DNA of 64,000 nucleotides from the NCBI RefSeq assembly GCF_009674605.1, contig NZ_WKJO01000002.1, positions 62,001 through 126,000 of the forward strand, given 5' to 3'. Shown piece by piece: positions 44,820 through 56,352 of this stretch. Within the stretch, counting starts at the first letter, position 1; each line of letters begins with the position of its first letter. The notes beneath the pieces are model-generated. The model saw only the letters and a program-made list of their open reading frames with translations. It was not told the DNA's origin and ran no database searches. The position numbers were made by a program, and so were the translations under genes. Source of the DNA: Haloferax litoreum. GTDB taxonomy: Archaea; Halobacteriota; Halobacteria; Halobacteriales; Haloferacaceae.

Positions 44820-45008
44820 AGGCCGAAGAGGAGGCTTCAGAGAACGAGACGAGAGAGCGCCGCTACAACTGGCCCCGCATGGTTCTCGACGAACTCGTCG
44901 ATGTCTACTGGTAAGATATCGCACCGAAGCGATATCGCGACGGGTTCGACGAGGACAGCGGTGTCCCGACCTGCGAACCGTACCGAGCATGGATACTGGT
45001 GTGAGAGG
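44820..45008 (+). pseudogene. Eroded gene fragment of unknown family
   Basis: One plus-strand frame gives protein-like sequence across two stops: 'RRYNWPRMVLDELVDVYW', stop, 'DIAPKRYRDGFDEDSGVPT', then a stop near 45008. The acidic, haloarchaeal-like composition suggests a real ancestral gene. The family is not recognised. Confidence 0.4.
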
Positions 45009-52713: not shown

Positions 52714-53547
52714 ATGACTCGTGATGATGCGGAATCTGCCTTCGCTCTATTGGCGAGTGATATCCGGCTTCGAATATTGGAAACGCTGGTCGACGTGCCC
52801 CAACAAGAACCGCTCTCGTTCACCGAACTGTACGACGCGGTTGACGCCGCGAACACGTCACAGTTCTCCTACCACCTGAAGGAACTCACCGAACAGTACG
52901 TCCAGCACCAGGAAACGGGATACGTCGTCACCGACGCAGGACGACGAATCGTTCAGTCGATCAAAGCCGACGAATACACGCTACAGCCGAAATTCGATCC
53001 GGTGGCGATCGAGACGCACTGTCCGTACTGTGGTGCCACGGCAGCAGAAGCGACTTACGATGGCCGACTCGCTACGATAGATTGTCTCTCGTGTGCGAAC
53101 ACCGTACTGCGATACGAATTGCGGCCGGGTCACGTAGCAAAACGGAGTTCCTTACGAGCACTGGAAGCAGCGGATCGGCAGATGCGTGGGGAATTATGTT
53201 CCGCTGTCGACGGTGTCTGTCAACGTTGTGGAGGGTCGATGAAGTTGGAGTTCATCACAGGGAAAGAGGTCGACCCAGCAACGGTACTCGTCGTCTGTGA
53301 GTGCCAACACTGTATGACGACGCTTTCAGTTCCCATAGAGGTTGCACTCTTACACCATCCTGAAGTGATTGCAAAGTTCTGGGATGACAACCTGAACGTA
53401 ACTACGACGCCCACGTGGGAACTGCTTTCAGAAATTTCTGATTGGGATGTCGAGTTAGACGCATCGGACGGGATTATGGTAGAGTTTTCGGGGAACAAAC
53501 ACCTCCGATTCGAGCTCGAACGCGAAGAGGAAACTCAGCTCTGGTGA
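52714..53547 (+). CDS. Winged-helix regulator with zinc-ribbon domains (ArsR-like HTH)
   Basis: A 277-residue regulator. The HTH at residues 5-80 ('FALLASDIRLRILETL', 'FSYHLKELTEQYV') is ArsR-like. Then come two Cys pairs forming a zinc ribbon ('HCPYCGA', 'CLSCANT') and a second ribbon ('VCQRCGG', 'VCECQHC'). The C-terminal 80 residues are probably ligand-sensing. It is divergent from the CPBP/ABC operon, with 201 AT-rich bases between (ATATTTTATATAATATCATA), so it could control that operon. Confidence 0.85.
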   Translation: MTRDDAESAFALLASDIRLRILETLVDVPQQEPLSFTELYDAVDAANTSQFSYHLKELTEQYVQHQETGYVVTDAGRRIVQSIKADEYTLQPKFDPVAIETHCPYCGATAAEATYDGRLATIDCLSCANTVLRYELRPGHVAKRSSLRALEAADRQMRGELCSAVDGVCQRCGGSMKLEFITGKEVDPATVLVVCECQHCMTTLSVPIEVALLHHPEVIAKFWDDNLNVTTTPTWELLSEISDWDVELDASDGIMVEFSGNKHLRFELEREEETQLW

Positions 53548-53554
53548 AGTTTGA

Positions 53555-54091
53555 CGGCACACGTGGTGTGTAGACGGTAACATTACTGCAGTTGTCAATG
53601 AGTACGACGCCGTCGGCCTCGAAAACGAGGAACCAGAGGAGTGGGAGTGGAACGTCGACCAAGAGTATATTGTCAATCCCCCAGAATTGTATCTTAACTC
53701 GATACAAACTCGCGATGGACGGGCAGAGAATACCGTCGAGTCCCATCGGACGAGGTTAGCGAAGTGGGTGCGGACATACCTGGAGTTGCACGGGACAGAT
53801 GCGTTGCTCGAGCCACTGTCGGAGTTAGACCGGCAGCCGAGAGAGATAGAGCGCTGTCTCGCCGTTCTCGACGTCTTCGATGAGGAGCTCTCGACGGACC
53901 GGTCGAAGCTCGATTATCTACACGTCGGAAGAGCGTGGTACGCCTTCGTGATACGCCGGAAGTACGCGAAGTACAATCCACTCGCCGAGGCTGGGGAGGA
54001 GTTCGGCTGGGAAGCCAGTGAACCAAACCCACAGGCATTGTCGGCGTCACAGGTTCGCCGAATCGGCCTTGTTGAAACCCTCAATCAGTGA
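53555..54091 (+). pseudogene. Truncated site-specific integrase (tyrosine recombinase, N-terminal part only)
   Basis: An open frame after a TGA at 53552. The translation 'ENTVESHRTRLAKWVRTYL', 'RAWYAFVIRRKYAKYNPLAEAG' and 'PQALSASQVRRI' matches the SAM-like core-binding domain of XerC/D-type integrases. The first codons of the catalytic domain follow, then a switch at 54065 to unrelated residues where the 17-base inverted repeat begins. No good start codon is in frame apart from a TTG at 53687. I read this as an integrase cut by insertion. Confidence 0.55.
54065..54081 (+). repeat. 17-bp inverted repeat, left copy (IS end)
   Basis: GGCCTTGTTGAAACCCT. The exact reverse complement is at 56275-56291. 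It begins where the integrase reading frame loses homology, supporting an insertion edge. Confidence 0.6.
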
Positions 54092-54104
54092 TAGGTTTCA
54101 GGCC

Positions 54105-54137
54105 GCGTGCTGCATACAACGCGCGTATTCAGCACGC
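54105..54137 (+). repeat. Hairpin, left of the DUF6326 gene
   Basis: 13-base arms, GCGTGCTGCATAC (54105-54117) and GTATTCAGCACGC (54125-54137), with one mismatch and a 7-base loop. It could be a transposon-end hairpin (IS200/IS605-like) or a terminator. Confidence 0.4.
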
Positions 54138-54247
54138 TTCCCGTCTATGTAGTTGGGTGTCACTCAGTTGCCCGTGACACCATCGCAGCGTGAAAATGGT
54201 ACCACTTCACATGGCTGGAGGTTCATGTGTGTATGGAGAGAAAGCAC

Positions 54248-54730
54248 ATGAGCGAAGCACGTACCGAAGTAAACGAGACAAATGGGTTGGAAGACGTCGA
54301 GATGAATGTAAAACTGAAGCTTGCGGGGTTGTGGACATCATTTATGTTTTTATATGTATATGTAGATATTTTTGGATTTTACAAGCCAGGGACTATTGAG
54401 GATATACTAATAGGAGAAGTATTCACGTTCCAAATCACGCCAACATTTGTGTTGGTTGCACTAGTATTTGTGACAATTCCGGGTTTGATGATTTTCCTGT
54501 CTCTGGCATTGCCGGCAAGAGTGAATCGATGGACGAATATTGTCGTGGCAATACTCTATGTACCTTTTACTTTATACAATTTAGTGGGCGAATCTTGGTC
54601 ATATATGTATTTTGGGGCAGGCATAGAAACTGTTCTTCTTGCAATAGTTATCTGGTATGCCTGGAAATGGCCTCGGACTACAGGGAGTAGTTCAGATTCT
54701 GAGACTGGCTCAACCACTGCACTCACATAG
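54248..54730 (+). CDS. DUF6326-like membrane protein, AT-rich
   Basis: A 160-residue protein with four membrane helices: 'LAGLWTSFMFLYVYVDIFGFY', 'FVLVALVFVTIPGLMIFLSLA', 'IVVAILYVPFTLYNLVGES' and 'ETVLLAIVIWYAWKWP', each given in part. The order and the 'W-YAW-WP' end match bacterial DUF6326 proteins as remembered. The codons are strikingly AT-rich (ATA, TTT, TTA) compared with neighbouring genes, indicating recent transfer. Start at the ATG at 54248, with the ATG at 54302 as an alternative. It lies inside the putative mobile element. Confidence 0.7.
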   Translation: MSEARTEVNETNGLEDVEMNVKLKLAGLWTSFMFLYVYVDIFGFYKPGTIEDILIGEVFTFQITPTFVLVALVFVTIPGLMIFLSLALPARVNRWTNIVVAILYVPFTLYNLVGESWSYMYFGAGIETVLLAIVIWYAWKWPRTTGSSSDSETGSTTALT

Positions 54731-54826
54731 ATCGAAGGTGTGACACCGTCTAGTGGTTCGTCAAGCGTGGAGTTGCGGGCTCGCGCCCCGCTAACTCACC
54801 AGTCCCTATTGAATAGTTCTCGTGGC

Positions 54827-54859
54827 GCGTGCAAGATACAGCCTCTGTATCGGTCACGC
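54827..54859 (+). repeat. Hairpin, right of the DUF6326 gene
   Basis: Perfect inner arms GATACAG and CTGTATC around CCT, extended by GCGTG and CACGC. With the hairpin at 54105-54137 it frames the AT-rich gene. Either could be a mobile-element end or a terminator. Confidence 0.4.
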
Positions 54860-54955
54860 TGCTACTGACAGCCAATGGGTAGTTCGTCGAATCTCTGCTG
54901 AATACAGGGCGCAAGTCTTGCAGGTCGAAAAAGCAGGTATCTCGGCGGTCTGAAT

Positions 54956-55204
54956 TTATTCGCCCTGTTTGACTTCATAGATCTCGTCAGCGGTGAGGCC
55001 GTGGGCTTCTTCGTGGACCTTCTCACCCGCTTCCTTGCTCGGACCCTCAAAGAGACAGAAGACAGCGCCCTCGTCTTCGTCTACCCAGTAATTCAGGTAT
55101 TTCACACCGTGCTTCTCCTGGGTTTCAAGATCCTTTTTGTGAGCCTCTACGACGTCCTCAACGCTCGCGTCCACATTCCGGTGGACGTCCATATACAATG
55201 ACAT
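54956..55204 (-). CDS. DUF4242 family protein
   Basis: An 82-residue protein of the DUF4242 (SCO4226-like, nickel-binding) group. It has 'MDVHRNVDASVEDVVEAHKKD', 'YLNYWVDEDEGAVFCLFEGPS' and 'VHEEAHGLTADEIYEVKQGE', each in short form here. Two His and several acidic residues could bind a metal. Codon use is GC-rich, unlike the DUF6326 neighbour. The function is unknown. Confidence 0.8.
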   Translation of the reverse strand: MSLYMDVHRNVDASVEDVVEAHKKDLETQEKHGVKYLNYWVDEDEGAVFCLFEGPSKEAGEKVHEEAHGLTADEIYEVKQGE

Positions 55205-55385
55205 GGTTCAGATATTGTTACGCCTCCACAAGGCATTAATAGAGGACATTTTCACGCCAACTTGATTATTGAGTAACAGGGTGGAAACACCGTCGAGAGG
55301 TGCGTTCTTCACATGGCACGTGGAGAAGTTTGGGAACGATGTGATGAATGGATCCTCGATATTCAGCAGTCCATTCCTCTCAGCA

Positions 55386-56237
55386 TTAGGGACAATCGCT
55401 CCCTTCACGCGAAATAGCGAGGTCTCGTTCCACGTTGTGAACGACGCACTTGATGACGAGTTCGCGGAACTGCTTCCACCAGCGGCGTGACCGCACGAAG
55501 GCACCGAATTTCTGTTTGATTGCCGCGTTGACCGTCTCGTTCATGTTACGCTGATGGTAGAGATCGCCGTCCAGCCGTGCATTCCATGCTTTGTGGAGTG
55601 AGGTGAACTCACGATGCTTGATGAGCGGTCGAATATCGTTGTCACGGGCGAGCCGCCGGAGTTTTTGATCGTCGTAGCCCTTGTCACCGGTCAAGACTTC
55701 GATGGACTGTGCGTTCCGTTTCACTACCTGTGGCGCAATTTGCGTATCGTGCTTCCGCGTTGTCGTCACGTGAATATCGAGAACCGCATTGGTCGCCGTA
55801 TCGACCAACAGCGTCGTCTTCAACTGTTGGATGGTGAGGTTCGTTCGCTTCGTGTAGTGAGTTGATGCATGAGCCCGCTCGAATCCGGACGCATCGATGC
55901 CGATGACACCGTTCAGCGGCAAGTTCGAAAGTGAAACGTTCAGCAGAATCCGCCAGACGGCCATTTCCAAGCGGTCGAACGGCTTTCAGAGTGTCGAGGG
56001 TGCTGGAATCGAATCGAGATCGAGGGCGTCACGAATGCGAGGCATCTCGATGAGTTCATCAACGAGGTCGCGGTACGTGGTCGTCTTTTTCACCTTGAGA
56101 CAGAGAAGCACGACGTGCTGGCGGAGCGTGAACCGCTTCCGTGAATATCGAGTCGAAAACCGTGCAACAGCACGGCGAGCCAGCACCAGAGCCCGTTCAA
56201 CGAAACGGAGAATGCGTGACTTCGGCAGGGAATCCAT
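55386..56237 (-). pseudogene. IS5-family transposase, interrupted by one in-frame TGA
   Basis: The DDE transposase reads in a single frame from ATG 56237 to 55386 (283 codons) except for a TGA at 55986-55988. 'IGIDASGFERAHASTHYTKR', 'LTGDKGYDDQKLRR' and 'MNETVNAAIKQKFG' (here in parts) supply the D, D and E regions. No frameshift is present, so one base change would restore the protein. The last residues (AISREGSDCP) look unlike family C-termini, so the 3' end may be altered. The right inverted repeat lies 38 bases upstream of its start. Confidence 0.8.
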
Positions 56238-56274
56238 CCTATCTCAGACTACTCGTCCATCATGTTTGCCAGCA

Positions 56275-56291
56275 AGGGTTTCAACAAGGCC
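56275..56291 (-). repeat. 17-bp inverted repeat, right copy (IS end)
   Basis: AGGGTTTCAACAAGGCC, the exact reverse complement of 54065-54081. It lies just upstream of the IS5-type transposase start, the normal place for the right terminus of such an element. Confidence 0.6.
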
Positions 56292-56352
56292 AACTCAACA
56301 CATTCGCCAGTCGTTATGATCGGTGCGTAGTCCATCTCATCAGTACCAGCTT

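Follow-up and report, generated by a model that had tools for sequence, protein, structure and literature searches.

An inactivated IS5-type transposon of Haloferax litoreum appears to belong to an integron-like cassette system of haloarchaea

The transposon and its surroundings

The DNA analysed here is a window of 64 kb out of a 322-kb contig (NZ_WKJO01000002.1) of Haloferax litoreum, whose whole genome comprises 3.56 Mb. Between two exact inverted copies of a 17-bp repeat, GGCCTTGTTGAAACCCT, this window contains a DUF6326 gene, a SCO4226-like (DUF4242) gene, and a broken gene for an IS5-type insertion sequence (IS) transposase (Table 1). The two repeats terminate a single 2,227-bp IS5-type transposon, in which END is followed by the DUF6326 cassette, a separator unit, the SCO4226-like cassette, and the transposase, which is broken. 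This element appears to be part of an integron-like system, little noticed so far, by which accessory genes are shuffled among haloarchaeal genomes.

Table 1. Features of the transposon, in window coordinates (HMM, hidden Markov model of the separator unit; ORF, open reading frame; TSD, target-site duplication)
Feature	Position	Strand	Basis
Whole transposon	54065..56291	- (by transposase direction)	2,227 bp; inverted 17-bp ends; layout of the TSD-bearing relatives
Left terminal inverted repeat (transposase-distal END)	54065..54081	+	repeat search of the window
END unit, matching the right half of the HMM	54090..54135	+	HMM positions 51-96, E 4.7e-7 (search of the 64-kb window)
Dyad site R, GTGCTGCATA-CAACGCGCG-TATTCAGCAC	54107-54135	+	read directly from the sequence
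Cassette 1, with DUF6326 gene	54136..54828	+	between two units; homologous cassette in another genus (L137) behind an internal unit
DUF6326 gene, 167 amino acids	54227..54730	+	PF19851, E 2e-12
Internal separator unit (L site, middle, R site)	54829..54922	+	HMM positions 2-95, E 1.3e-20, 68.5 bits
Cassette 2, with SCO4226-like gene	54923..55340	-	flanked by the internal unit and the half unit on the transposase side
SCO4226-like (DUF4242) gene, 82 amino acids	54956..55204	-	PF14026, E 4e-22
Degenerate unit, left half (L site), next to the 3' end of the transposase	55341..55410	+	HMM positions 2-71, E 2.5e-4, weak
IS5-type transposase pseudogene	55386..56237	-	one in-frame TGA, 55986-55988
Right terminal inverted repeat (transposase-proximal end)	56275..56291	-	repeat search of the window

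A first-pass annotation of the window had described the inverted repeat pair, the IS5-type transposase starting beside its right copy, and the two genes enclosed, and these points were borne out. Allowing up to three mismatches, the 17-bp repeat matched twice in the window (0.09 matches expected; two copies in none of 100 shuffles), and a search of the whole genome for exact copies returned only these two. The transposase ORF starts at 56237, 37 bases downstream of the right copy, and both enclosed genes were confirmed by Pfam matches. A left copy from another element family would have contradicted the annotation, but related elements have the stretch from 54065 to about 54125 conserved at their transposase-distal end, which places both repeats in the same family. 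The C-terminal piece of the transposase matched DDE_Tnp_1 (PF01609; E 2e-16) and the N-terminal piece matched no family; taken together, the pieces were 90% identical to an intact Halorubrum protein (P0001), which scored 214 bits against NF033579 (IS5), above the cut-off. The transposase of the window element probably no longer moves the whole element. Against NCBIfam NF033706 the SCO4226-like gene scored 73 bits, under the cut-off of 125. A product 82% identical to it is encoded in another genus (G040; L053 8388-8633), with related terminal repeats 3-4 kb away.

To the left, the transposon is joined to an integrase fragment whose homology to two intact Haloferax integrases stops at base 54064, both alignments ending at query position 664 of 53401-54140. 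Residues 61-213 are encoded at 53606-54064 and residues 1-31 at 44879-44971, 8.6 kb apart, and the integrase is therefore broken in two places; another segment splits the gene between these two pieces, and no 17-bp end (up to four mismatches) was found at either edge of this split. Residues 214-399 had no credible match within the 64-kb window, including the DNA behind the right repeat, and the sole match to the C-terminal part in the genome was an intact paralogue on contig 3 (416-residue frame, 63% identical). Since the C-terminal remainder is absent behind the right repeat, the site is not a clean insertion. The bases flanking the element, GTTGAGTT and GATTCGGC, agree at three of eight positions and thus form no TSD, likely because the flanks were rearranged after insertion. 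The proposal that the integrase had been cut exactly at the repeat therefore stood in so far as homology ends one base before 54065, but a simple disruption by the transposon was ruled out by the missing TSD and by a C-terminal part whose only genomic match is the 63% paralogue. On the other side, a degraded IS4-type (DDE) element with broken ORFs, from 56292 to about 57400, abuts the right end; among the megablast alignments listed for haloarchaeal transposases outside the transposon, the majority start at 56283-56291 and one at 56325.

Relatives, target duplications and cargo

Relatives of the transposase were found in elements of 1.2-5.1 kb with differing cargo and exact 8-bp duplications. 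An 8-bp target duplication is the length known for the ISH1-type group of the IS5 family. Both ends were found for 46 distinct transposase-bearing elements (a recount of 47 entries, one two-transposase element having been counted twice); TSDs agreed at 8/8 bases in 21 of them, with lengths of 1,211-5,124 bp, and at 7/8 in two more. Among the loci examined, 35 facing-end pairs had TSDs of at least 7/8, including 29 at 8/8. The proximal end lay about 50 bp upstream of the transposase in other genomes and the distal end, conserved over about 60 bp in many relatives, at a variable distance behind it. These analyses showed that family members, as well as some transposase-less versions, have inverted repeats of about 17 bp and 8-bp target duplications. 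Of the features of the IS5 family, the transposase was found, the ends are present in the window element, and the TSD is present only in the relatives.

The cargo of elements with close transposases included a P450, type IV pilin-like proteins, secreted proteins, a lipoprotein, and others (named by eye), a variety suggesting that, as in a transporter IS, passengers are not needed for transposition. The earlier view of the DUF6326 and DUF4242 genes as passengers of the IS was thereby upheld, given that kin with like ends and transposases carry other genes and exact 8-bp TSDs; the nested insertions offered as the other option are unnecessary. Three elements, from Halorubrum (L061), Halosegnis (L062) and Halobaculum (L064), shared an identical last 60 bp. 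From the transposase side, L061 had 42-50 matches per 50 bases with L062 and 39-50 with L064 up to about position 950, where the resemblance ended, and its cargo showed no similarity to that of either. Because L061 and L062 each have an 8/8 duplication, shared borders and unrelated cargo, they stand as an unambiguous example of cargo exchange within a pair of fixed borders.

Other arrangements were also observed. An ISHla2-like subgroup (L086, L092, L093, L095, L118), with transposases about 66-71% identical, carries small passenger ORFs and has 8/8 duplications. One element with an 8/8 duplication (L065 6264-8644) bears two different transposases near opposite ends, 93% and 40% identical to P0001. 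Mini-elements of 124-125 bp (miniature inverted-repeat transposable elements; L051 4912-5035 and L026 1393-1517) have like ends and 8/8 duplications. An element of 3,496 bp that has no related transposase (L008 1272-4767, in G000:C1) is flanked by the 8/8 duplication GAAGTTGT and carries an AAA ATPase-like gene (by eye) and two more genes, possibly a defence or maintenance operon.

Dyad sites, separator units and probable cassette exchange

In one subgroup of the family, which includes the window element, the cargo lies beside dyad sites, termed R and L. Of 35 elements searched with up to two mismatches in 16 bases, 18 had the motif GTGCTGAATASAGRGCGCG at a distance of 59 bp from the distal end, and nine had it in inverted form immediately after the stop codon of the transposase, near position 924. 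With up to one mismatch it was present in 123 of 167 family genomes, and a reversed control was unmatched among the matches listed. Consensus sequences were derived from 184 R sites (GTGCTGAATA-CAGGGCGCG-..TCGGTCAC) and 166 L sites (GTGCTGAATA-CACCCTCTG-TAT..TGCAC); these are 29-bp dyad sites with two arms of about 10 bp and a spacer of 7-9 bp and, as read from the consensus, are inverted relative to each other. Two arms around a short spacer is the form of a tyrosine-recombinase core site.

The sites occur in two classes of unit: END units adjoin the terminal repeat, and internal units, about 95 bp long, have no such repeat. In several cases the repeat of the opposite end was found on LEND units. 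The conserved unit that divides the two passengers of the window element recurs in series in other genomes. A separator HMM was built from 26 internal units, the window unit at 54829-54922 being itself among those of the starting alignment, and recovered that unit in the genome search (G000:C2:116828-116924). The model gave 33-124 matches per genome in seven genomes, picked as rich in motif GTGCTGAATASAGRGCGCG or as own or genus examples, with 46 in the genome of the window; the richest (G042, 124 units) is rated 11% contaminated and the next richest had 81. When 196 genomes sampled from the phylum were searched more strictly, 23 had matches, several of them with partial units only, and all 23 belong to the same order as the window. 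The middle segment was kept in 148 full units (L-middle-R). At the gathering threshold of Rfam, no unit was matched in four loci, the only match being a tRNA in L150. Two other roles were considered and discarded: an attC-like hairpin site, attractive from single folds, failed the RNAalifold and shuffle tests, and a promoter or terminator function of GTGCTGAATASAGRGCGCG was set aside, as cassette genes point both ways (main ORF along the array in 72 cassettes and against it in 53).

Units stand in series at gene-sized spacing, and longer elements, with or without a transposase, hold series of cassettes. Several cassettes lie in one orientation separated by the conserved L-middle-R unit, and an array has the layout repeat-R, cassette, (L-unit-R, cassette)n, L-repeat. 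Among the best 150 matches listed, neighbouring units within 2.5 kb were on the same strand in 64 of 65 pairs and opposite in one. In 38 regions with 221 units, neighbours within 3 kb were on the same strand in 162 pairs, of which 146 kept the order END or internal unit followed by internal unit or LEND; these regions were fetched or merged around matches, which biases their orientation counts towards arrays, and the 150-match figure is less selected. The longest runs, with gaps of up to 3 kb, comprised 16 units, then 11, 10, and 10. A transposase-less element with three cassettes (L159) has an 8/8 duplication; L148 (three cassettes) and L143, both in the genome of the window, have TSDs of 7/8, and L150 has one of 6/8. 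Mismatched flank pairs, used as a control, reached at least 7/8 in none of 182 cases. Public examples are available from Haloprofundus salinisoli (NZ_CP083664.1) and Haloprofundus sp. MHR1 (NZ_MN918442.1), and one array among them consists of END, five internal units, and LEND, with decayed terminal repeats.

The 146 cassettes had a median length of 596 bp, and a single ORF filled more than half of the cassette in 125 of them, vs. 29 after block shuffling. Scanning of 94 of the 115 listed cassette proteins gave 73 Pfam families, each matched by at most three proteins. Single cassette proteins matched models of defence genes (Mrr-type, Csx1-like, Cas12f-like), and arrays may therefore carry defence or other mobile genes.

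Homologous cassettes recurred in other genomes beside other neighbours. Nine pairs were found and eight were examined for breaks in homology, leaving out one with a 103-bp match; the upstream break fell inside the R site in five of the eight and the downstream break inside the L site in seven. The unit behind the same cassette differed between copies, indicating that the unit stays put when the cassette travels. No cassette pair of at least 60 bp was found in reverse orientation at the DNA level, and distant protein relatives point either way. The DUF6326 cassette of the window has its counterpart in L137 (85% protein identity) behind an internal unit and not an END; the change occurs inside R, and the shared downstream sequence stops in the L site. 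A putative phosphothreonine lyase cassette, about 95-96% identical between two Haloprofundus plasmids, has different annotated neighbours in each. In the genome of the window, a YdeI-like gene occupies an internal cassette, and the same gene makes up the sole cassette of a Halopiger element, which has the 8-bp duplication CGATCACC if its terminal repeat ends two bases past the best match; in Haladaptatus the gene has borders without a unit, a partial unit lying 1.7 kb away.

A proposed mechanism and its alternatives

We consider it probable, without being assured of it, that the inactivated window element belongs to a haloarchaeal family of IS5-type transposons in which the cargo slot is a small gene-cassette array with site-specific exchange. 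We infer that cassettes are exchanged by a tyrosine recombinase and arrays moved by the IS5-type transposase: a putative site-specific recombinase, most simply a tyrosine recombinase (the host Xer or an integrase acting in trans), would recognise the ~10-bp arms, strand exchange in the 7-9-bp spacer would swap, add or remove cassettes, and the transposase would carry whole arrays to new replicons. The genome of the window encodes a XerA (239.7 bits, above the cut-off), and 13 weaker tyrosine-recombinase matches bring the total to 14, outside the arrays. The wider proposal, that Halobacteria own a cassette system independent of integrons, with paired dyad sites, a putative host tyrosine recombinase, series of at least 10, and IS5-type export between replicons and genera, seems to us evenly poised between right and wrong.

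Several observations weigh against site-specific exchange of cassettes. The window element lacks a TSD, and its L half near the transposase matched the model weakly. The distal motif GTGCTGAATASAGRGCGCG was absent at the stringency used in 17 of the 35 elements, and the ISHla2-like subgroup is without it. RNAalifold gave five weak consensus pairs in the units, none with two-sided change, and complementarity of the arms inside units was not above that of shuffles. The order rule was broken in 16 of the 162 same-strand pairs, and 10 neighbours were opposite. Only four of 14 complete END-to-LEND arrays had TSDs of at least 7/8, and one had 6/8. Among the cassette pairs, the upstream break of pair 5 lay about 70 bp inside the cassette, the downstream break of pair 6 lay away from the L site, pair 4 had a 17-bp gap directly behind R, and the flanking units of pair 2 were too alike to place the upstream break. 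No recognisable unit was present downstream of the DUF6326 cassette in L137. The L062 and L064 cargoes both contain pilin-like genes (39% protein identity, opposite orientation), and a direct before-and-after pair of one array was not found. A crude motif scan of the array loci, run without a positive control, revealed no recombinase.

The last result would also suit arrays formed without a dedicated recombinase, in which nested or adjacent transposons lose their inner ends and homologous recombination between the ~95-bp units shuffles the genes. Internal units do resemble an L end and an END fused without terminal repeats, and their likeness is sufficient for some homologous exchange. We nevertheless judge this unlikely, as breaks fall mostly within the 7-9-bp spacers with the unit staying behind when the cassette moves, the middle segment is preserved in the full units despite carrying no terminal repeat, and the 64:1 orientation bias is unexpected under random insertion. 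Less probable still is that the window element is a plain transporter IS that picked up its genes once, its internal unit being an unrelated dispersed repeat. One transposase, two end repeats and two genes would fit such an origin, and single-cargo relatives with TSDs exist, some without dyad sites; the internal unit, however, matched with an E value of 1.3e-20 a model dominated by arrays, elsewhere the DUF6326 cassette follows an internal unit and keeps its upstream border, and the near-identical backbones of L061 and L062 hold different cargo. The absent TSD and the missing C-terminal part of the integrase could, finally, be explained if the two 17-bp repeats were two separate insertions enclosing host genes. 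This origin was rejected and has hardly any credibility: the left and right repeats are two distinct ends of one element type that relatives bear together with 8/8 TSDs, and the genome contains only one repeat pair.

The cassette arrays proposed here resemble integron arrays in that they consist mostly of single unrelated accessory genes in short cassettes with ~95-bp repeats, recur across genomes, and show a similar gene diversity. They differ in a repeat that does not fold like attC, in arrays that in some cases lie inside IS-type terminal repeats with 8-bp TSDs, in the lack of an intI-type integrase in the array loci by the above motif scan without positive control, and in a cassette that moves without its separator unit, whereas the attC site of integrons travels with the cassette. 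In the pdif modules of Acinetobacter plasmids, on which XerCD acts, genes are bounded in series by ~28-bp dyad sites made of two arms and a short spacer. Haloarchaeal cassettes are likewise bounded by inverted dyad sites and lined up in series, but the sites are archaeal, differ from pdif in arm sequence, include an extra conserved middle segment, and are packaged in IS5-type transposons. With transporter IS of the IS5 family, such as the relative ISHla2, the elements share an IS5-family transposase, inverted ends, an 8-bp TSD and passengers; in contrast, several haloarchaeal passengers can stand in series as exchangeable cassettes between conserved sites, and a transposase is missing from some of the elements.

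A haloarchaeal cassette system was not described in the titles and abstract beginnings searched, a search that left subscription journals and ISfinder outside, so that absence from print is not established; within the same bounds, a 15-base piece of the unit did not occur in the papers text-searched. The main text of a study of archaeal integrons contains none of the terms 'Halobact', 'haloarch' and 'Euryarchaeota' (PMC9668308), that of a study of archaeal tyrosine recombinases does not contain 'cassette' (PMC8371274), and five haloarchaeal words are missing from the searched text on archaeal Xer/dif (PMC2958812). According to the accessible text of a study of integrons at hypersaline sites, 47 archaeal halophile genomes were run through Integron Finder, and the arrays described come from metagenomes and a bacterium (PMC7923331).

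Recognisable cassette borders make it possible to annotate arrays, to follow cassettes from genus to genus, and to look for a recombinase in a genetically tractable host. Haloarchaea exchange genes heavily and, to our knowledge, the travel of single accessory genes among them is poorly explained. Haloarchaeal genes annotated as 'hypothetical' next to remnants of an IS could in some cases be recognised as mobile cassettes and, if the proposal is true, haloarchaea would hold a second natural answer to the task performed by integrons in bacteria.

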